Below are positions 3,681 to 21,000 of a DNA stretch of 64,000 nt, one piece after another (within the stretch, counting starts at the first letter, position 1; each line of letters starts with the position of its first letter). The notes under the pieces are model-generated. The model saw only the letters and a list, made by a program, of their open reading frames with translations, was not told the DNA's origin and ran no database searches. The translations under genes and the position numbers were made by a program. The stretch lies in the NCBI RefSeq assembly GCF_000189635.1, contig NW_002476405.1:310001-374000 (forward strand). Reading direction: 5' to 3'. The stretch comes from Tetrahymena thermophila SB210 (taxonomy: Eukaryota > Ciliophora > Oligohymenophorea > Hymenostomatida > Tetrahymenidae).

Positions 3681-4580
3681 ACTTTTAATTATCATTTAAT
3701 CCTTTCCTTTATAAAGTAGGTATTTCATAAGTATATACAATATAAGAAAAAAACTATAGATATATGATTAATATAGGTTCATTAATTAAAAATAGTTATT
3801 ATTATTATTAAATATATAAACTAGAACTAATGATTGACTAAAATAGAAAAATAGTTTGCTCTTAATTCATATGATTATTACTATTACTAAATTTATTATC
3901 AAAAATAATATATTAATGTTTAGCTAACCTATTTTTACATCTTTTTTATAATTCATTTTTATAAAAAAGATAGTTTTGAAGCATATATTTATTTTAATTT
4001 TATCACTTTTTGATTGAATTATTAAAAATTTTTAAAGATAAAGTCAAATATCAATTTATTATAATCAGTAAATTATAAATTTAACCTTTCTGTTTATAGA
4101 ATAATGCCTCATATAATCCTATTTAATTATTGTTTCATACATACATCTTTTCAAAAAAATGACTTTTTCTAAGCAATAGAAAACTAATTTATTATATAAG
4201 TTCAAAAATATTTGGAAATTAAAATATACTTATAATCATATTGAAATAAAAATGTAATCTTTATTAAATATATCAATAACGTTAGTCAGTCTATTTATAT
4301 CTTTACAGACAATATTTACTGACTAATATTATTTGAGTTTTTTAAATAAATTAAAAAAATCAAAGCGCTATTAATTTCTGATAATTACTATTTAAAATTT
4401 TTTAGCTCTCATACTTCTAGATTAATAATATCAAAAATATAATTTTATATTTTTATTCATAAAATCTGAAATAGATATATTTTTAGTAATATTTTGATTA
4501 AAATATTTCATATTTTTTTAAAAATTTAATATTGCTAATATATATAATATTATTATCCCAAGTCCTATTTGTATTGTAGG

Positions 4581-4600
4581 GTAGAACCCTAGGGTTCTAC
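4581..4600. repeat. Perfect 20-bp palindrome
   Basis: GTAGAACCCTAGGGTTCTAC equals its own reverse complement. With one mismatch the symmetry extends to 4578-4603. It is 50% G+C inside a region close to 80-85% A/T, so it stands out sharply. It has no loop, so a dimeric protein site is as likely as a cruciform. The function is unknown. Confidence 0.9.
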
Positions 4601-5214
4601 TCTATATATATAACATAAGATTTTAATACTATAATTAAAACTAAAATGAACAAATATTTTTAAAATAAATATAAACAACCAACTATCATAAAGTATATTT
4701 ATATTTTTTTGTATGTTATTTTATTATGTGATAATATTTGACTGCAGTAATATTAATTTACTGCTTAAAATTATTTACAAATTTTATATTTTTTTATTTT
4801 TAATTAAATTTTGAAATAAGATGCAATATAAAAATGTTAAATTTTAAAAATATATATCATTCTATTTCTATATTAATTTGAATGCAATTTAGATCAGTTG
4901 TTAACTAAAGGAGTAGATTGTAATTAAGGAGATTATTAAAGTGTTTCTTATTAAGATAAGATATTATTTAACCTCAAAGTTTTTAAATCAGAATATTCTA
5001 ATTTTTAAAAATTAAAGTTAAAATTATTTTTATTAAACTAATTTACATTGAAGAGTTTTGAAATTGTTAGTTTTAACTAGATTAAAATCTAATTCAATTT
5101 CTTTATCTATTATGAAGGAATTTTTTTCAGATTCTTAGTTATCTAAGTTATTTAAATTCGGCTCTATAAACTAGCTTTTAAAGTTTGTTTATTTATTTAA
5201 TACATTTTGATATT

Positions 5215-8200
5215 TCATGTCTATTTTAATTTTTAAGATTTTTTATTTAAAATGCACATTTAATTAATTAATAAAATTTTACTTAGTTAGGTTTCCAAAA
5301 CTTTTATAAAAAACTATTTTCTTTATTCAATATTCATGTCTAAGTATCTTTAAAATGCTCTTTTAATTTTAGCTTTTATTTCTGGATTAAGCTTCTTAGT
5401 ATTATTCTCAGTTTATGTGAAACGTTTGAGCAAATGAATTTTTACTGAAAGTTTTACTATCAAATTTTTAATAACTTACTTAAATAACAAATAATAATTA
5501 TAGATAATTTCTTTTAAAACCGAAATTATAAAAATAGAGTTAATTAGTAAAATAATTCCAAATGAGGGATAATAAAAATATGGGAAAGGATTTTGATAGA
5601 TAAATATTCCAAGTAAAACTGTAATAGAACAGACTATAGTTGAATTTATATCAATTTAGTTTATTTCTTCTTCCTTATAAGGCTTGACCATGATAGTCAA
5701 AATTCCATAAAGTGTAATGCTAAGAAAAACTAAAATCCCTTTTATAATAATCATTTAAGAATAAAAATTAAGTGATAGGATTATTGTTATTTTTTCTACC
5801 ATCTTTACAAACTCCCAATAAAAAGCTTAGTTTTTGTATTCAATATAAAGAAACCCATATTTCAGTTTAATTTTTGTACTTTCAAGCTGATCTTAATTTT
5901 TTTTCAATAAAACAAACAAAGTTATAGGCAAGATAAACAACCAAATAATCAATAAAGGTAGAACAATAGCTAATATGTACTTAATATGCTAACTTGTATA
6001 ACACTCAAAAGAAACATTTGATAAAATGTAGCTTTTGTCTCCAATATTTCTGCAAGATAGTAATGCTATTATCTAAGCAACTATATCAGGTTAAGTGTAA
6101 ATTATTAAAAACATTGAAGCAGTAGAAATACTTTAAATTGGAAAAGCTTCCTTTTTTTTATTTATCCAGTAATGATAAACCAAAAGCCCTAAAAAAAATA
6201 TTATCAGATATAAAATAGGAATAATCTAAGAAAAAATCATTCTGAAAAATATTATTGGTATTTCTGTCTCTATCTTAACAAGTAAGCAATCTAATGAACT
6301 CATAGTTTATTTTATTGGATTCCCAACAGACTGAGGAAGCTCAAAAATACCTAAAAATTTAAATGTTTTAAATTAATAAATTTTTAACTTTGTAAATATA
6401 TGAATAAACTATGCTTAATTTAAATAATTTTGGATATAATTAAATCAAATCGCACTTTTAATTATCTATTTTTCGCAAGTATAATTATTTAAAAACGAAT
6501 AAATTTTATTTAATATTATGAATTTAATTTAGAAATAATTAAAACCTGATGGAATAGTAAGATTGAATGTAGCAATCGAACCTACAATTTAGAAGTAATT
6601 TGTAAACATTTTTATGCAAATACTTTATTTCATCGAGTCAGCTTATTTTTATTCAAAGTTAGCATTTTTATTTTTTTAAGAAATAGTAATCTATCTTTAA
6701 AACTATTGTGTAACATTTTTTTAAATTTAACTTGCATTGAGAGATTTGTTTATTTGGTTATCTGTTATTTAACTAATTCCTCTATTCCTAATATTCATAA
6801 CTGTTCTTTTAATTGCAAGTTAAGCAGCTTCAATTTTCAAAGAAGAAATGTTTCCTCTAATTGCAATCAGCATAGAGCATAACGTCCAAAATGTCAAAGC
6901 AACAATAATCCATGAATTATATTACATTTTACTGCATAATGCACATGAATATTTAGCTGTTTTAGAGTATTTTTCTCCCCAAAACTGACCCTCAATCTTC
7001 AATAAAATTAAAAATTTTTGGTTTAATCGAATTGAGTTTATGAATTCAAAATAAAATTAAATTATTTACATCACATTCTTCACAAAGTGCACCAATATGT
7101 CCTTCATAGCAAATATTATTTCCGAAGCTACCTCCAACGCAGTTTGATTCCTAATTTTCACAAGAAAGTATTATTGCTACATCACCAGATCTTCTCCAAT
7201 AACCATAATTTGTAACTATCTAATCGCCACCAAGACACTCAGCACCCTTTGGACATTCTTAACACTATTAAACATTAAATGAGTATTATCCCTTTTTGCA
7301 TATATCACATTAAATTAATAAATTATATTGAGTCTTTTATTCTCCTGAAATGCAATCCCTAAAATAAACGTTTACATCGAATGTGTAATTTTATTCGTAT
7401 AAATTTGTCTGTTTATTTAAAGTATAAATTTGGTCAGAATAAAACTATAGAATCACTGAAGAATTAGGTGTTCCTACAACAGTCAGTTATGAGAAAGAAA
7501 ATGATTAGGATGTTTAATTGAAACTGACTTACTCATCTCCACTTAGTTAATAACTTTGGATATTCTGAGTATGAGGATTTACTTTAACTTAAATTTTGTA
7601 AGATTAAATTTCTTCATAAGTAATAGGAATAATACATTCATTTTATTCATTTGTTAATTAAAACTAGATATCTTTTAATGAACCACCACTTCTAAATTCC
7701 ATAATTTCTATAGATTAATTCTACTTACCTTTGTTTAGTGTTAGAAATTATTCTAAATTCACCAAATTTAATTTGCTTGCATAAGAGATTAAGTTGCTAC
7801 CATATATATATCCAACGTTTCCTTCAAATTAATTTTTTGTTAATTATGCAGAAATATTTTATTAATAAATTGCTCCAGCTATTTATGCAAAATTAGAAAC
7901 AAAAATTGATTCAGAAATTAAAGCCGAACTATTTGGAGGATTAAGATTTTCAGAATAAATAAAAATAGCTCCACCTTTTCCATTTATTGAAGTATTATTC
8001 TAAAAGATTGATTTATCAATATTCAGTTGAAAAGCCTATATTATGATGAAATGAATTAAAACAATTTTAATGTAAACTAAAAAATAACATTTGTGTATTA
8101 TGACTGAATGTACATAGCACCTCCATCATACTAAGACTAACATTTATAAAATATACTATTTGAAATGGAGTTTTTTCCTTGAAGTCCATTAATAAAAAAA

Positions 8201-11200
8201 AATCCACCAAATTGATTCTTTTTATAAAAAAAAATATCTAAACAATTTAAATTATTGAGTAAAGTTAATGTATTAATAAATAACATAATTAAAGACATTG
8301 CATTAAAAAATATAATTTAAATTTTGCTTACCCTTGTTTAGTTAAAGATAGAATTATCAATATTAAGGTTGCCATTTTGCAGTTAAATAACTCCGTTACA
8401 ACTTTAGCAGTTTAATTCATAAAAAATGCAATTATTTTAAATATAGATTTAACTATTTTATAGCATTATTAAAGATGTTGAATCTTTAGAAGGTTAAGTT
8501 TCTTTCAATTCACTTAAAATTCTATTACTTGATTGTTAATTAATATTTAAAAATTTTGCACTATCTAACAAAATCGATCCTCCTTAAATATTTATGAAAT
8601 TTTTAACATAGCTACAATCCGAAATTGAGGAATTAAATATTTAAACAGTTGAGTTTTATGATTGAATAAGAAGAGGTATATTTGAATCAAGGTTTTTTAC
8701 AGATAAATCAGAGATAGTACAATTCTTTAATTAAACTTATGAATTCGTTAATTTTATTAATGTTGATTACTATTTATTTTAGTAACCTTAATAAAAAATA
8801 TATGGTAAAGAATCTGACTAAAATGGTTAATTATTTTTTTGAATTATATTGAAAAATTATATTTCTGAAGATTAAAGAGAAATAAAATAATTATCTGAAA
8901 CACCTTATATGTTGTAAATCAATCCACCATCAAATGTTATTTAATAAATAGCATAAACTGAACTTTACTAATATTATCTTTATAAATTTTTATAAATTAA
9001 AATAATTAAATAAATAAAGCATAACCTAAATATCTTACAATTGATAATTTTGCATATTAAAAATTGCTTAAAAAAATAAAATTTAAGATAAAATTTCAAT
9101 TTAAAAGTATTAAAAAAATGTAGAAACATTCTGTATTTAATTTTAAAAAGTATTCATTTTAATGTGAAAATTGCCATTTGTTTCATCTTTTATTAATTAA
9201 TTAATTTATTTAATAAAATAATAATAATCTTAATTAAATTTTATATTTTGAGAAACTAGTATTAACATCGTTTTTTTGGGTATTGTTTTAAATAAAATTT
9301 TTGATTTTAGATTATTTTTAATATTGTTTAATTAAATGATAATAATAATAATAATAATATAATAAGATACTGTAATTGTATAGCTGATGATAAAAGAGGT
9401 AATGTGAATAGATTACTGAAACTACAGTTCAAACAACTGAAATTTAATTTCTGTCCACTTGTATCTATAAAAATGGCACTTGCATCTACAGAAGCATATC
9501 CTTCAGTAAAATAGACGTTGTTAAATTAAAGATTTAATATCTCTGCAGATGATACTAAGTAAAGAAAACCTCCTTTTGAAGCTGTTGCTTTACTGAAATT
9601 GCAGTTTGTAATTGATATATTTTCTGCTTTTGCATATACCATGCAGCCAATTGAATTATATAAAGTTAATGATTAATTATTTATAAAGGTAGAATTGCTA
9701 AAATTGATTTAGTCCATAGATAATTAGCTTGTTTCTATATAAGCGAAGCCATATTAAGAATTGCTGTACGAATCTAAAAAATAAGATTTTTTAATTAAGA
9801 CAGATCCTTAATAATTGACTATCCATAATGCTATAGATGAATAAGTTTATGTGTATTAAATACTCTAAAGAAGTATATTTTAAAAATTGCAATTATTTAT
9901 CTATATTTCTATATTATAAGTTGTGGATATTTGGATTGGAATGGATTAAGTATTTTTTCCTTATTGATATAAAATCAAATCAGTGAAATTACTATCAAAA
10001 ATTTGTAGTGTAGCTTATAAAACAGAATTATTTTCTAATGATATTAAATTAATGTCTTATACTCTCATTGAATATAATTTATTTTAAGTAATAATTGTTT
10101 AGTAAATTTCACTTAATGAAAAGCAACCACTTGTTGCAATGTTTAAAACTTAATCAAAGTATTTTTTATCACTTAAGCATGAGAATAAACTAATATTAAC
10201 TGTATTGGCAATTTAAATTAAGCCAAATTAAATATTTAAATTGTTTTTCATAGTTATATTTTATGCATTAAGTGTAGCTATCTTGTAGGTTTCAAATAGC
10301 TAAGCTGAATCTAAATCAAATGAGCTATTTTTTATCAAGAAATTACTATCAAAATCTAAATTTTGAAGTATAAGTTAATGAGATGGTGAAGATCTCATTG
10401 AATACAAAGCATCAAAGAATACATAGGTTGTTCTAGCTTAAAATTTATTGTTAGCTATGCTAATATTAGTAAATTAAAAAGTTTAGTTTACTTAGTCAAC
10501 AGTAGCAACTGTAGAAAATATCGATTTCATACAAATAGTGTTATTATTCATTTGCATATTACTGACTGCAAAGAGGCCAGCTTAAAATAGGATAGAAATT
10601 TAATTTTTGTCGTCTTCATCGCTTTTTTAAAAACAAGTATTTTAAGAAATCAGAAGATTATTAACATTAGCTTAGATATTAGATTACTACTACAGAATGC
10701 TAAACTAATTCCCAAGAGTACAGTTAATTAAAGACAAATTATAAATTTAAATCTATTATTTAAAAAAATTTAATGGCATTGAATTATATAAAGTAAATTT
10801 TACATAACTAGAGTTAAAAGCTGCGATTATTGATTAGTGATAACTAAAATCTTCATTTGATAAATTGTACTTTTAGATAATTAGCTAAGTAGAGTCAACT
10901 TAAATAGATTAACAATTAATTTAAGATAAACTAATATTTAGATTCTTAAGTTAGATATTATTAATAATAGCATTTTACCCAATATTCTAAAAAATAATTC
11001 CACATTAATTAATTTACTGATTCAATGTAAAATTAATGATCATATCTTAAATTGTTATTTAATTATAATTATTAAATTTCATAACTCCTTAGTAATTTAA
11101 ACTTGCATAAGTGCCATACTTACTACTTAAAAAAAATAACGAAATAATACTATTAAAATCGAAATTCATTAGATTTGGGTTTAAGTTATACTCATTATCA

Positions 11201-14200
11201 GGATTTATGTAAATATTAACACTCATATCAGAAACACCTGAAACAATTTACTTATAGTATTAAGCCTATAAATAAATAATATAAAGTTAAATTAAAATAA
11301 AACAAAAGTTTATTTTAGATTAAATTTTTAGTTTCTTGAAATTTTCTTTATCCATAAACATCCAATTTTAAAACTCTCTAATTATTACTGTAAAAATTTT
11401 TGAATAGAGGGATTTAATTTTTATTTTTTTATGTTGTTAATTTGAAAGAGTTTTTTTTTAAATTATGAGAGTTTCAAGTATTTTAAAAATAGAAAATTTT
11501 TTAATTTATTAAAAAATAAAACAAAAAGAAGAACCTATAACAAAGATTTTGGAGCTTAAAAGCTTTTAAAAAATTAATAATTAAACAATTTAAATATTTT
11601 TAATACTTTGATCATTGCTGTTAAGAAATTGTCAGATGTTGTATAAGGATTGTCAACAGCTCCTGCACCATAAACTGCATTAACATCAAATTGATTTGTT
11701 GTATTAAAATAATATTACTAGGTACATTATGTGCAAAGAGTAGAGTTTGAGAGACAATCTTGAATGGAGTAGAATAGATTTCTATCTGTGTATTAAATCC
11801 ATAGTGTGTAATCACTTAGCATTTCTATATAAATTAACTTGTCTTAAATTTTTTTTGATTAGAGTTGTAAAAAAAAATCGAATAGTTTTGAATTTTAATT
11901 CAGTTTAAAGATTAAAGCTTCTCCAGAATTAAAATCACCTAAAGCTATTAGCTGAGGTTTTGAAAAGGCTCTTAAAGCTAAAGGTTAGCTAGTTAATTTT
12001 GCTAAATACTAATAATTTCCAGACAAATAATCTAGAGCGTAAACTTTATTATCATCACACGACATTATTATTCTTTTAAATCCATTAATATTGAAAATAT
12101 CACCTATTTAAGAGTTTTTGCAAATACCTAAATTTAAATTCAAACAAAATTTCAAAAACAATAAATTTAAAAATTATATAGAATTTAAATACACATAATA
12201 TAAATTAATTTATAAAGTTTAAATTTACTAAAATTATAAGAAAACTTAAATTCATAATTAGGAGTGCTTAGATCCCAAATGTAAACAGTCCCATTATTAT
12301 CTACTCCAATTAATTCTAAGTTTTGTGGATCATCTAAAGAAGCTATTGCAAAAGCTGTTTGGATTGATGTAACATCACTTTGATTTGAAGTTAAAAAATA
12401 CCTCTCAGTTGTTGATTGGCAATTGATTAACTAAAATAAATAGTTTTCTGTATTAGCTTTATTAGGAAAAGCTAAAGCAACATATATTTTATTTTATATT
12501 GAAAATGGATCTAAATTTTAATTTATACTTGCCCATGTCAAACCAAAAGAATTTGTTATGTCAATGGCCTAATTTATAATTGTAATTTTTGTAAATAGAC
12601 TTTAAATAAAAATAAGTAATTGCTCTTACTGTATTTTATTGGCTAAGAGGATATATTGGGAATGTAAATATAAAGCTATTACTTCCATCTTCACCACTTT
12701 TGATAAAATACCAATCAAATAAGTTTTTTACTGAGTAAAAGCTGCCATATTAATATCTGACGTTACCTGATAATTCAGGTTTTTAATTATTTCCATCATA
12801 TTATCCAAAATAACCATCATCATAAAGTAGAAGGTAATTTTGGTATAAAAATATGTATTTATCTGTATTGATATCATCCTGTCTAATAAATCTTCTACTT
12901 AGCGTGTCGCCACCAAAATCTAATTTTTAAGTTGTTAAAAAACTTTATATGTATATTTAAATGAAATATAAAAATAAAATGTTTTTTTCATTTTATTTAA
13001 AAATTTTTATTTAAAAGATTAAGAAAACTTTTAATATTTAATAATTTATAGTTACTGCAAAATTTAATAATAGTCTATAAAAAACTTAAATTATTATTTA
13101 AAATATAATAAGTATTGTCAAAATTAAAAATTACATAAGTAATAATAAAACTAGTAGGTGGTATAATGAAAGACTGTGATATATGTACCAGAAGATATAA
13201 TTAAAATAGGATTTTCTTATATTTTATACAATTTAAAATAGCAAGTGATTTAAATCCAGTAGTAACTTGAAATACTCATTTAAGAATAATCGTCATTAGC
13301 TGATAAATAGATTGGAAAAACATAGTATTAAGAGTTGATGATAAGAGTATGAGAATAGCTCCCGTTAGAAAATGATAAATCATAAACAATATTTTGAGTA
13401 TTATCTGTTAAATAGTATGAATAAATACCTAAAATTTATAATTTTAAATCTTTAAAATAATTACAATTGTTATTAAATTTTACTCTATTTGAAAAGAGTT
13501 TAATAAACTCCTTTCTTGATATCTATTATTTTTACTGCTGCTACCACTAAATATTTTCCACCCATAAATATTATATCTTAAGTTGGATGTTTTGTAAAGC
13601 ATTTGTTTCCATCTCCTTATTAATCTACTATAGCTATGAAAAGAATAATTATTTTTTATTAATTTAAATTAATAAATTTAGCATACAATCTTGGATATAG
13701 CCATTGTAAGAATAAGTTAGATTTTATAGATCTACACTCCAAGTTATTATTCCTCTATCATTTGTAGTCACTATTATATATTCGCCTGTAGAAAGCTGAT
13801 AAAAGCTTGAATAATACTAATAAAGCTAAGAATTATCAGAGAATGTCTAAAGAATTTATGTATTATCTAAGAGAAGAACTACTTATTGCTGAATAAAGTC
13901 AAATATTTACAAAACATTATAATAGCTAGTTAAAATAACATAATTAGTTCCCTAAATTAACTATAGTGAAGAAATGTTGATAAAGGAAAAGGATTATTGT
14001 GATTTCAAAGTATATGGATCTGCAAATATCAAGTTATTTTAGTTTATTATCACTAACTGTTAAGTTTGATCATTGTAATACATTTCTCCTATCAGAAAGT
14101 CAGCTTATTATTATTAAAATAGACATTTTTAAAATATAAATTCAAATCATAAAAAACACAATGCTTAGTAGAATTATTAAAATTTTTTAGCTTACGAGCT

Positions 14201-14519: not shown

Positions 14520-15626
14520 ATTTTCTTATAAGTTGATTGAGATAAATATTAAATTTTTGGTTTATTAATTATTAAGTAATTAGAAAAAGATATAGGTTTA
14601 TTATATTTAATAAAATCAAAGTTATATCTTTATTGTTGAATAGCTAATAATAGATAATTAAAAATTTTTACAGGTTCAGTAGTGTTTTTTGCTTCACAAT
14701 ATAATTTTAAAATAAAAAAAATACACATATGTATTATTATCTAATGTTTCTATAGTTAATTTTATTCTTTGTTATTTAAAAAGCTTATTTAAGAAATAGA
14801 TTTTTTTACTTGATACCTATTTCAATATTAACAATATTAGCAAAAATAGAAGTTAAATTTTTCTCTCAAATAATTTTTTAGAATTCATTGTTTAGCTAAA
14901 AATCTTAAAGATAACATTTATACATAAAAATCAAATTGGTTCAAACAATTTGTACATAAGATTATTTAATATTATAAAAATTATGGATGCAAAGTTATTT
15001 ATAAAATAGTAAATATATAAGAATTAAATAATTCATAAATCATTCAGTTCATTCATTTTTAGCTTTTATTTATAATTTTATATATTTTAAATTGAAAGTT
15101 TTAAATTAAGTTTGAGTTTATTTAGTTTTCATTTAAGATGATTTTTCAATTTATTTTACCTTTAGATTTCCTTCACTAAATCGCTCATTCATTAAGTAGC
15201 AAGCTCGTTTGATATAAAAGTAGTGTAATTAAAATAATCTATCCATCTCTATTAGTATTTGTAAAAATTTATTTACTATTAACTTAAACACTAATAATTA
15301 ACTAATTCACTTATTTGTATGATATTTAGTCACTCTTTAGTTTAAGTCAAAAATAAATGTATCAAGCAAGAAAAATCTGTTTGCCATAACGCAGATTACA
15401 TTTATTCATATTTAAATTTTATGACAAAATATTAATATATAGTTTGTAGGTAGCTTTTAATCATTTTAAATTTTTTGAAATAATGTTGAAAGAATTAGAT
15501 TAATTGTTTCAATTTTCTTATTTCTTTTCTTCTATTTTTATCTAAACCTAGTTTAATACATACTTAAGCTTTTCTTCTAATTTTTACAATTATTTTAAAT
15601 TTTAAGAATCTAAATCGCTCAAATCA
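14520..15626. other. A/T-rich intergenic region
   Basis: This contains the 5' flank of the giant surface gene and the 3' flank of the Schlafen-like gene, both on the minus strand. No open frame with coding character, GC island or RNA-like fold was noticed. Confidence 0.6.
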
Positions 15627-18062
15627 TCATATAGAAACTATTTATATTTTAGATAAATCATAAATGAGATTAAAAAAGAAGAAATAAATACCATTTTTTA
15701 GATTTGGTTGCACTCTGCTCTGAGTTGCTTTTTTATTTTAACTTATAAGTCTTATCTATAATATTAAAAAATGTTTATTTTATTAATCTTGTTTAATTTA
15801 CTAATATTGTATTTACTTTATTTCTTGTATTGACATTTTGGCATTCGAAGATTATTTTTTAATATATGCATTATTCTCAAAGAAATATATATCTGAATAG
15901 TTAGTTTTTACTACTTATAGCTCGATTACATAATTTTTACAGTCTTTACTAAGCTACACAGGCTTTCCAATTACTTCAGTATAGTTGATTCTCACTTCTC
16001 CCACTACTAATCTTGGTTCTATTAAAGAAGTTATATAATCTATATACAAATTAAACCAATCCTTTTACTTAGCATTCAAGCTTATACCATCTACCCAACC
16101 TTCATCATGCACACCTATATACCTAATTTTTATTATTTTAAAACAATATTTAAGTTTAAATCAGATTTCATTTATATTTTTGATAAAAATATATTTTAAA
16201 TATTTAAGAATTAATTTTTAAAATATTTTAGCTTTTTAAATTCTATTAATTATTTAATTATTTGTATTCAAAAAATCAGCATTTTATTATCATTCATTAT
16301 TGGATTTTTAAAATTGTTAAAAGACTTTTATCAAATGCCAAAAATGAATAAAGAAAATTATTTTTGATGATTTACTATCACCAAAGTCTTAAAATTCAAA
16401 AAAAGTGCCATCTAAAATTAAAAATTTGAAGACATTGATAAAAAAATCCCCCCAATTATAATTGTGGAAAATTTTCTTTGCTTTTTTGTTAAAATTAAAT
16501 AAATTTAATAATTTTGTTTACATTGTTCCTCCTTTGTGGTTTAAGAAACCGCAAATATATTAACCATATTCTTGCAATTTTAATATAGCGATCATGTCTT
16601 TTTAGATTTTACATGAGGATATCTTCTAGTAGTTTTTAAATTCGACTGTAGAACTTTCATGACCTAAGTCTTACTTATAATAATAAACCTTGTTACTGTA
16701 TTTTTGGGTATTAACATCTGTAAAATCTTTAAGATACTCATCATTGGAGCTCAAATCAGTGTATTTTGAAGTTTGTTTTGTTATATCTAATTCGCTCTTT
16801 GATTTTGTGTCTGGATTATTAAGACTGTTAGAACTGTGTCTTATGTCTTAAAATTAGTATTCATTATTTTTTTTAGACTTTTTATTTTAATTTTATTCTT
16901 GCTTTATCTTTAATTCTGCAACTTGGATATCGATGTTTTTGTTTGATAAATCGCCTTAGTTTTTAAATTCTTAATTTACTGGAGTATTTTGATCATTTTT
17001 GTTTGGAGGATTTTAAGTTTTTTTCTTTGTCTCTTTTTACTCTAAGTTTACCATAGTCTTGCTTTTTGGGGAATAAGATATCTTTTTATTTGATTTATCT
17101 ACTTTACTAGTTCTACCTTAGAGATTGGAGTCACTGCCTTTAGAATTCGTGTGTTTTTCTTCTAGCTCATTTATTGGATCTAACATCAAAATATCATTTC
17201 TATCTACAATACTATCATCGTCGTATAAATCTAAAAGAATGTTTGCTGTGTTCTATGTCATTTTATTATCTTAAATCTTATCTATATTAGCTAATTACAT
17301 ATTTAATTTTTCTTTTGGAGAAGGCTCATTCTTAGAAATTGGAGTTACTTAATCCACAGAGTTATTGTTATTGCTATTTGTGTTTTGGTTCTTAGGTACT
17401 ACCTTTTACTGAGAGATTTGCTCGTATAATTTTTCTAACTGCTTGTTACTAGATTAAATATTGTTAAAGTCATCAAGTAAACTCTATGTGAATTTTTCTT
17501 TGGGTGCTGCCATGTATTTAGTGGCTTTTAAATCATTTACCCAGTCATTTTTTTCTGCTTAGTTGTGATAGTAAGGACAAAATATTCCATAAATGCATAC
17601 ACTTGGCTTATCTTTTGCTAATTAATTACTGTTTTCTGTTGTTCCATTCAAATTTTAATTAGCTGCTACAGAAGGACATTCTTTTGATCTGAAATTTTAA
17701 GGATGATAAAAATACTCAAAAAAATTCATGCAAAATCTTGTATCTTCTCTATCTGTTTCCTTGACAAAAAGCCTGCTGTAATTGAATTTATTTTTGTCTT
17801 TAACAACTATTTTACGTCTTTTATCAAATTGGTTGTGCCACTTTATGCAATTAAATAATAAGGGAAATACAAATTCTTTCTTTTTATCTAACAAAGCACA
17901 TTCTTTATCGCAACACTCCTCAGTTTTATACCTTACCCAATCAAACTCTCTTTCATTTTTAATCACTACTTATTAACTCCTACTTTGTATTTGTAATTAA
18001 TCATCTTATATGATATCTATTTCTTCATCCTCGACTAACTCTAATTGTTGTGCCTATGACAT
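15627..18062 (-). CDS. CCCH zinc-finger (Unkempt-like) protein with Schlafen AlbA_2 domain
   Basis: Two exons (18062-16522 and 16122-15627) give 678 residues; the junction completes ...FLNHKGGTM/YIGVHDEGWVDGI. Residues about 30-155 carry spaced Cys/His groups (CC..C, NCIKWHNQFDKRR, FCMNFFEYFYHP, VCIYGIFCPYYHN), reminiscent of the CCCH fingers of Unkempt and plant tandem-zinc-finger proteins, which bind RNA. A long, polar, Asn/Lys-rich linker follows. The C-terminal part has Schlafen AlbA_2 hallmarks: E-S-S-T-V-E-F-K, then ICGFLNHKGG and IGVHDEGWVDGI. The family includes RNA nucleases (mammalian SLFN11/13) and regulators, so RNA binding or cleavage in the cytoplasm is a reasonable inference. 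The last 60 or so residues are weakly conserved-looking. The ATG at 18060-18062 precedes an acidic stretch and is the first in frame. Confidence 0.78.
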
Positions 18063-21000
18063 TTGTTTATTCACTAAAAAATATGTATCTGCCAAAACTA
18101 ATTTTTTAAAGTGCTAAAGCAATCTGATTATTCAATCAATCAATAGTAATGGAGTATTGAAAGTTAAAAAGAATCGAACTATTCACCTTTACACCTACCT
18201 CTCTTGTTCTTTCAATTTTATGGCTTTAGCAAACAAATCAATATATCTATCTAAAAACTTATTTATTTACTTACTAACTAATTAACTAATAAACAAACTA
18301 ATATTTTAATTATCAACTGAGAGTTAAATAAATATGCAGCATATATAGACAATATTTATTATTTTAATCTAAATTTCAAATCTTTTAATTATTGATTCTT
18401 CTTTATTGCATATTTTATTTTCAAATAGAAAAAAAAGTCTTATTCTAAATGCCTATGATTAATTGAGAAGCTTTTTCTGATAAATTTTACATGACACATT
18501 AGAAACCTAAAAAATAGCTAGACATTTTAAGTATTTTTCAATAAATAAATAAATCATAAATAAATTGTAAATATTTGATATTTTGAATAAAATAAAAGAA
18601 ATTGATTTTTTTAAATAAAATATAGATAAAAAACAAATATATTTTTTACATAAAATAAGCTTTAATTATTTTACATATATATTTATGCTTTTATGTAGGA
18701 TGTTATAATCATTTTTTAAATCATACATTTTATGTGAGATTAATTTATTTAAAATTAATTTTTTAAACATTTTTAAATTAAATTTTATTTTGTATTATTT
18801 ATATTTTTTATTTTAAAATACATTTATTTATTTCTCATTTTTATTTGATGAGAAATTAAGCTTGTCTTCAATTTTTTTTCAGCAAAATTATTTATTCATA
18901 TTTTATGAAAAAAGTATTTACAAGTTTCATTTTCTTAATAGGTCGTCAATATAATCTATAAATTCAATTTTTGAAGCATTTTAATGAAATACAGATTAAA
19001 ATAATAATTTAATTGAAAAATAAATTAAATTAATATTATTTTTATATGAAAATGGTTTTCTTTACAAAAATTAATAAAAACATGAAAAATAAAAAATATG
19101 TCATATTATGTATGATAAACAAAATATTAAGAAATTTATTTTTTTATTTATTTGATTTATGATCAATAAAAATTTAAATTAATATGTTTATCTATTCTTC
19201 TTAACTCATTCATAAGATATTAATTCTATTGAAAACGATACTAATTTTTTTAATTTCATTGAAATAGTTTCCAAATATTCTTTTCTCACTTCTTCTATCT
19301 AGTTCTCACTTATTTATAAAATATTTCATTCAAATTAAAAATAATTGATATAATGAAAAATAAATTAAATAACATCAAATAAAGCATTAAAGTTGTAAGA
19401 TTGGTAAATCTTTTCAGTTACTAACCAATATTTAAAATTCCTTAATCTCCTATTTTGTTATTACTTTTTTTTTATAAAATAATTATATTTTTTAAGTTGA
19501 AAATTTTTTTTTAGTAAAATATATTTTTAAATATTAAATTTAATACAAGACAATCAAAAAATATTTTATATTAAATTCAACTTATTTTAAACTAAATTAA
19601 CTAAATACGTAAACTCAATTATCAAAGTTGAAATATTTTAGCATTAAGCCAACTGATTCATTAACAAATAAGCACCCTCATCATTAATTTTGTTAGAACT
19701 TTTTAAGTTATATTTTTAATTAAAAATTTAGTAAATTTTATGATATTTTTAAGGTGTTTATTCAAATTAATAAATTAATAATATATTTAGATATTAGTAT
19801 ATATAAATTTGTCAATTTTGTATGCTAATTTATAATAAAATGAATAAATTTACTAAAAGTAGAGCTCAACTGATTAGAGTTTTTAAAATTTAATCAAAAC
19901 TCTACCTAAATCCTCCACTCCTTATTATCCGATATTATTTACTCTTTTATATTATTGTTAAATGTTAGTATAAAAGAAAAATTAATTTAGCATTTGTTAA
20001 ATGAGAAAAAATAAATAAAATCAAGGCAAATAAAATATTAATTACCCTAATCTTAACTTTAGATGTGTGAGATAAACCATATTTGTAAAAGAATTTGCTA
20101 TTGAAGACAAATATTAATTTGATAAATTACAACTGCTAAATAATTTTCAAAAAATTATATTATATTTTTATTTTTCAAAAATACTGTAAATATTCATTCA
20201 TTAATAAATACCTCCCCTTTTACTATTATTATTATTTTATTTAATTTTTAAATTTTTTTAAAAATAGGGGAAACTATCATTTGGCATTAATAATATAAAA
20301 GAAATACAGTCTATTCATTGATTTATTGATCTTGTCATTATTTAATTCACTTTAAGTAAATAAATGGATACATTAAGTAATAAAATTGAAACTATATTTT
20401 ACTATAGGCTAATCATGAGAGTTTTTACGTTAATGCACTTTTCTAATCCTTTACATAATTCTTATAAATCATCTCCTTAGATCTTCTTAAAACTATTACA
20501 AAAAAAGACATAGTTTTAATAATTTAAATATATAAATTTCTAATGATAAATAATTTAATGCAAATTGAATGAATAGCTTACTTGAGTATTAAGTCAATAT
20601 TGAGATGTCCTTCTAAGTTAGATTTTAAAAACTTTTGTTATTGTATAATAATAATATATTCGAAGGCTAGTTCACATGAATAATTACACTATTTATTTCG
20701 TAATATTTATTTTTATCTTGAAGATACTTTTTTGTTTATTAGTTCCCCATATAATATGTATAGTTTGAAGAGAAATAATCATCTATCAAATAAATTTAAA
20801 ATTAAACAATTTTTATTCTATTCATAATTTAAATATTAATTGATTGACATCTTGTTACTTTTACATATAAATATATAGAATTTTTTATCATTTAATTATA
20901 TTTATATACTTAAAGGATGTTAATTATAAATTAGCGCCAATATCTAGCAGATAAATTAATAAAAATTTGGCTACAAGATTTAAACAGTTTTCAAAAGTAG

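Follow-up and report, generated by a model that had tools for sequence, protein, structure and literature searches.

A gene on the minus strand of the 64,000-nt stretch of ciliate DNA analysed here (hereafter the window) encodes a protein in which an N-terminal cysteine- and histidine-rich region, most likely descended from an Unkempt-type CCCH zinc-finger cluster that is now worn, is joined to a C-terminal Schlafen AlbA_2 domain with a predicted intact active site. Schlafen nucleases are known as factors that cut tRNA and rRNA in vertebrates and, in nematodes, as the piRNA-processing PUCH complex. The combination of domains found here is real and unusual, and what it does can be proposed by analogy with these systems. 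With modest confidence, we read the fusion protein as a Schlafen-fold, metal-dependent endoribonuclease lobe that would be recruited to RNA, would probably work together with further lobes and is perhaps anchored in a membrane. No description of a CCCH-Schlafen fusion or of a ciliate Schlafen was found in the titles and abstract openings of the open-access literature, among the matches listed.

Gene structure and coding evidence

The gene is read with the ciliate code, in which TAA and TAG encode glutamine and TGA is the sole stop. Its first exon (16522..18062, minus strand; 513 codons plus 2 bases from an ATG at 18062, defined by its open frame and translation) contains the zinc-finger region, a linker and the first half of the AlbA_2 domain. 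It is followed by an intron of 399 nt (16123..16521, minus strand; GTAAAC...AAATTAG, of GT-AG type, 15.5% GC) and by a second exon of 306 nt (15817..16122, minus strand). Two versions of the 3' end were compared. In the first, exon 1 ends at 16522 and exon 2 is read through from 16122 to 15627, giving 678 residues; in the second, a probable intron of 61 nt (15756..15816, minus strand; GTAAAT...TTATAG, 11.5% GC) is removed and a probable third exon (15509..15755, minus strand), the best of six frames, contributes an 82-residue tail ending in TGA, for a total of 697 residues.

After training on ten gene pieces taken from elsewhere in the same genome, codon scores reached 0.25 bits per codon for exon 1 and 0.144 for exon 2. 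The two alternative tails scored −0.082 (exon 3) and −0.239 (read-through), compared with non-coding open windows of 82 codons whose median was −0.332 and whose 99% limit lay at 0.069. The exon 3 score was matched or exceeded by 3.8% of non-coding open windows of equal length, and is lowered by its hydrophobic codons. Overall, there is moderate support for a 3' end that probably comprises a second intron and a third exon, and the read-through end at 15627 is regarded as less likely given its score. An earlier note on this DNA had described one spliced frame of 678 residues; its GT..AG splice and its frame are real, but the 3' end probably differs. The Cys/His and Schlafen strings that it quoted were all recovered from the minus strand, in the frame that it gave, with CIKWHNQFDKRR, FCMNFFEYFYHP and CIYGIFCPYYHN at residues 72-83, 110-121 and 156-167, ESSTVEFK at 469-476, ICGFLNHKGG at 503-512, and IGVHDEGWVDGI ending at residue 527. 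Between the two groups of strings, the linker (residues 190-455; 16698..17495, minus strand; 0.289 bits per codon) is rich in N, K, S, Q and D, a composition which suggests that it is probably disordered.

The fusion could be an artefact of a gene model made from sequence alone, with the fingers and the Schlafen exon belonging to different transcripts, and the length of the first intron (399 nt) would be in keeping with such an error. This we regard as very improbable, since the finger motifs and the first Schlafen half, including E-x4-E-F-K and GFLNHKGG, share one unbroken exon of 513 codons and splicing restores the full domain; the single open exon plus the splice speak against separate transcripts for the fingers and the Schlafen half.

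Elsewhere in the window, a minus-strand ORF at 37919-38719 matches a glutathione S-transferase C-terminal domain (PF14497, 39.6 bits, cut-off 21.6) and another at 7046-8125, also on the minus strand, matches a TNFR/ELAPOR1-like family only below threshold (PF23091, 21.7 bits vs a cut-off of 33.2), while the ORFs at 9154-11631 and 13118-14083 gave no Pfam match at E≤0.001. On contig C4, (GGGGTT)n was detected at the start and again, among the matches listed, at about 465.6-465.9 kb, which is probably the other end of that contig. Such ends, along with TGA as the only stop, fit a Tetrahymena-type macronuclear genome.

A Schlafen AlbA_2 domain with predicted active-site residues

The spliced protein of 697 residues matched the Pfam profile SLFN_AlbA_2 (PF04326) at residues 469-610, over profile positions 1-117 of 118, with 53 bits (E = 6.2e-14), well above the curated cut-off of 25.3 bits, and the 678-residue version gave 53.1 bits (E = 5.9e-14). 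The profile search that the earlier note had called for was thus significant, and the Schlafen similarity cannot be put down to chance. The match emerges only once the first intron is removed: neither exon frame alone (16290-18122 and 15627-16112) matched PF04326 at E≤0.01. Pfam and alignment to SLFN structures place the first part of the domain, with E469, E474 and K476, at 16522..16658 and the second part, which contains D520 (16104-16106) and extends to residue 610, at 15834..16122, both on the minus strand. A single PF04326 stretch was recovered in Pfam searches of the fusion protein, with no second AlbA-like lobe and no match to a helicase domain. Against NCBIfam and PADLOC the domain gave no match at E≤0.01, and a single partial match turned up in phage records, covering 41% of the query at 39.1% identity (E = 3e-3).

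When compared to the PDB by sequence, the domain alone retrieved no Schlafen and nothing significant. A profile built from the eight AlbA_2 domains of this genome, the fusion gene's included, retrieved 17 sequences at E≤1, 14 of which were Schlafens (SLFN14, 11, 12, 8/13 and 5; E from 2.4e-15 to 8.2e-9) with the best stretch in their second, C-terminal lobe, and this lobe is the one to which the E-x4-E-x-K block and the D that follows GGxxxIGV align. Based on our reading of these alignments for residue equivalence, E469, E474, D520 and K476 fall in the active-site columns of SLFN13. In rat SLFN13, the active site consists of E205, E210 and D248, mutation of any one of which diminished activity (PMC5862951), and K212 lies close to it (PMC8789055). 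The acidic active-site residues, whose presence the earlier note had proposed to check, are therefore all predicted to be in place, along with the lysine, and the domain appears to keep the residues that cut RNA in its relatives, which makes the fusion protein a candidate RNA-cutting enzyme. By itself, possession of the triad is no proof of cleavage, however, because human SLFN5 has it (E191/E196/D233), without the lysine, and no ribonuclease activity was found for that protein (PMC8789055).

AlbA_2 paralogues in the genome

Within the 101-Mb assembly (445 contigs), a Pfam scan for AlbA_2 identified seven places. The fusion gene was not among them, presumably on account of the intron that interrupts its domain. 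When the domain of one of these seven, L014, was used as a protein query, the same loci were returned at E≤0.05, again without the fusion gene, and the fusion gene's own domain as query retrieved two paralogues, C442 (E = 1.6e-5) and C184 (E = 3.4e-5). As these searches go exon by exon, the resulting number of AlbA_2 genes, at least eight, is a lower bound. All eight proteins match PF04326. Based on hand-made splices for the paralogues, the full E-E-K-D set is present in six of the eight (the fusion gene, L014, L015, L016, L019 and L020), and L018 has a D in place of the second E. L017 (C31:375400-385300, minus-strand ORF 3841-5646) has lost the catalytic E/E/K/D while still scoring 56.7 bits to PF04326, and its sequence marks it as a candidate non-catalytic lobe.

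The fusion gene's domain is 21-28% identical to those of its paralogues and the most divergent of the eight (end branch of 3.37 vs a median of 0.98). In a tree of these domains, the pairing of L014 and L016 alone was supported, and the fusion gene was placed without support. In L014 and L016, the domain is free of introns and 56% identical between the two, and about 200 further residues have no Pfam match at E≤0.01. In L020 (4961-8017, plus strand), the second AlbA_2 half is followed by a very long stretch in the same frame (an open frame of 1019 codons), which is Q/N/K-rich in the part inspected. The gene strand was scanned for CCCH-like signatures with a pattern search that misses fingers split by introns, differently spaced or further away; none was found in the seven 9.9-kb paralogue loci and two were found in the fusion gene.

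These comparisons bear on whether the protein cuts RNA at all. It could instead be an RNA-binding regulator without nuclease activity, in which the AlbA_2 lobe would bind RNA or protein and the choice of transcripts would fall to the fingers, similar to SLFN5 or to the non-catalytic PUCH subunits. SLFN5 and mSlfn2 have the fold with no nuclease activity detected (PMC8789055), potential catalytic residues were reported for TOFU-2 of PUCH and not for TOFU-1 (PMC10567574), and the fusion gene's domain is the most divergent of its set. Yet all four active-site residues are kept despite the low identity to the paralogues, and L017 illustrates that these residues can be lost. We thus see regulation without cleavage as possible but rather unlikely.

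A probable, worn cluster of Unkempt-type fingers

The Unkempt-type CCCH cluster, delineated from motifs and alignment, spans residues 50-166 (17565..17915, minus strand). The fingers resembling Unkempt fingers 4 and 6 are largely kept, the middle one is degraded, with only part of its ligands left, and in the last one the first two cysteines are separated by 26 residues. For comparison, at least five Unkempt-like proteins (L021/L030, L024, L026, L031 and L032, on contigs C356, C156, C198, C332 and C40) are encoded in this genome, as judged from a search with the Unkempt C-half of L024 that found five places at E≤0.01; the fusion gene was not one of them, and residues 1-193 of the fusion protein retrieved only themselves from the genome at E≤1. 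By visual count, L021, L024 and L026 each have six fingers in a single frame, and the fusion protein is 30-34% identical to fingers 4-6 of these three, with C51, C72, H76, C111, H120, C129, C156, C162 and H166 invariant across the alignment. Three Unkempt-type motifs written from the alignment are present, in the same order, in the fusion protein and in all five own-genome Unkempt-like C-halves, but not in the one N-half tested (L021n).

Statistical support for this relationship was mixed. When residues 36-180 were shuffled 200,000 times, no shuffle held two or more of the three motifs, although this overstates the significance because the motifs were written after seeing the sequences. HMMER scores were weak: the fusion protein ranked first of 2001 (2000 shuffles; E = 0.0081) with a three-row C-half profile and fourth of 2001 with a three-row N-half profile, and when a five-row C-half profile was used, its rank was fifth of 10,001, as four of 10,000 shuffles scored higher. 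Comparison by hhalign did not tell the halves apart, with a probability of 43% for the C-half and 69% for the N-half. Pfam scores of the finger region were below cut-offs (PF23035 UNK-like, 17.9 vs 27; PF23261, 14.8 vs 27; PF00642, 12.2 vs 20.5 bits), such that the zf-CCCH profile search proposed in the earlier note gave no match above cut-off, and PF00764 matches of the N-terminus, also below cut-off, were taken as noise. The best PDB match of the N-terminus was to Unkempt (UNK; 5elk) at a non-significant E of 0.17, and single-sequence structure prediction of residues 1-200 was uninformative (mean pLDDT of 30.4). The description of this region as Unkempt-like CCCH consequently stands in part: the collinear motifs and the 30-34% identity argue for it, while the sub-threshold Pfam scores, the blank single-sequence searches and the missing ligands of the middle finger argue against. 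Compared to Unkempt itself, the motif order of fingers 4-6 is shared, but Unkempt has six fingers in two clusters, whereas one cluster only was found in the fusion protein, with its middle finger degraded and AlbA_2 joined to it.

The Cys/His groups might also be a relic that neither folds nor binds RNA, in an otherwise ordinary divergent Schlafen, which would be compatible with the protein being either a nuclease or a regulator. The lost ligands of the middle finger, the long first loop of the last one, the scores below Pfam cut-offs and the mixed outcome against shuffles are consistent with such decay. We nonetheless find it doubtful, as C72, H76, C129, C156, C162 and H166 are kept within DKRR and YHP context and the finger frame has coding-like codon use.

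C-terminal tail and comparison with known Schlafens

Provided that exon 3 is right, residues 637-651 (MVFISSFLISFMIYL; 15650..15694, minus strand) form a hydrophobic segment with lysines on both sides. Its 15-residue Kyte-Doolittle mean is 2.25, and the best 19-residue mean of 1.44 is below the customary 19-residue limit of 1.6. On the same proviso, the segment is a possible short membrane anchor.

To our knowledge, SLFNL1 of mammals has no CCCH fingers. It has a single C-terminal SLFN fold (PMC10567574), as in the fusion protein. The vertebrate Schlafen core (SLFN11/12/13/14) has in common with the fusion protein an AlbA_2 domain by profile and the C-lobe active site, with E-x4-E-x-K and the D after GGxxxIGV. 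This core is a two-lobed pseudo-dimer, as described for SLFN13 (PMC5862951), whereas the fusion protein has one lobe and adds Unkempt-type fingers. The structural zinc site of SLFN5, composed of H, C, C and C (PMC8789055), is unrecognisable here because one cysteine (C575) and no histidine lie between D520 and residue 617.

PUCH, the piRNA nuclease of C. elegans, comprises three subunits, and a predicted C-terminal transmembrane helix in SLFL-3/4 brings it to mitochondria (PMC10567574). If exon 3 is right, the fusion protein and SLFL-3/4 have in common an SLFN-like domain followed by a C-terminal membrane segment, which is a likeness of layout only. PUCH also combines catalytic and non-catalytic SLFN members, as the AlbA_2 set of this genome would, judging by its active-site residues. 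The excerpts available from the PUCH report mention no zinc fingers in SLFL-3/4 or TOFU-2 (PMC10567574).

One special case of the nuclease reading would make the fusion protein a membrane-anchored, PUCH-like subunit that processes small-RNA precursors with catalytic and non-catalytic AlbA_2 paralogues. The order of AlbA_2 and hydrophobic segment, as in SLFL-3/4 (PMC10567574), and an AlbA_2 set in which the active site is intact in six of eight members, altered in L018 and lost in L017 are in line with this idea. On the other hand, exon 3 and the helix are tentative, the transmembrane and catalytic subunits of PUCH are different proteins (PMC10567574) whereas fingers, active site and possible helix would here be on one chain, and Dicer reportedly makes most ciliate piRNAs. 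Altogether, this special case seems quite unlikely.

Proposed function and significance

For the more general reading that we prefer, an RNA-recruited endoribonuclease lobe, the following sequence of steps can be envisioned. The worn three-finger cluster at the N-terminus would recruit RNA, and the long flexible linker would let the nuclease reach it. The single C-terminal AlbA_2 domain, with E469, E474, D520 and K476, would then cut this RNA. Given that the Schlafen nucleases studied so far have two or three lobes, the protein would most likely form a homo-oligomer or team up with other AlbA_2 proteins in the cell, and the short hydrophobic tail may tether it to a membrane, as in SLFL-3/4. 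By the same analogy, the earlier label of a single-chain nuclease may be wrong, since the SLFN13 core has two lobes, PUCH has three subunits, and one lobe is found here. With regard to the analogy with antiviral Schlafens that the earlier note drew, no evidence in favour of such a role or against it was found.

A further extension concerns small RNAs. Twi12, an essential Piwi protein of Tetrahymena, carries tRNA 3' fragments (PMC4695841, PMC4307339), and the tRNA halves of starvation are due in part to RNase T2 enzymes (PMC4307339). In the portions of these two reports available, no enzyme is named as the maker of the Twi12 fragments (PMC4695841, PMC4307339), and it is a speculation that a Schlafen might be. 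More specifically, a Schlafen nuclease that is tethered to a membrane and guided to RNA by fingers of its own could form a PUCH-like complex with ciliate AlbA_2 proteins and generate Dicer-independent small RNAs, for instance the Twi12 tRNA 3' fragments, which we consider a long shot. More broadly, a protist chain that carries an intact Schlafen active site together with Unkempt-type fingers would bear on the age of Schlafen nucleases, as well as on how these enzymes choose their RNA, and in a ciliate amenable to genetics the fusion protein represents a candidate for cleavage that does not depend on Dicer.
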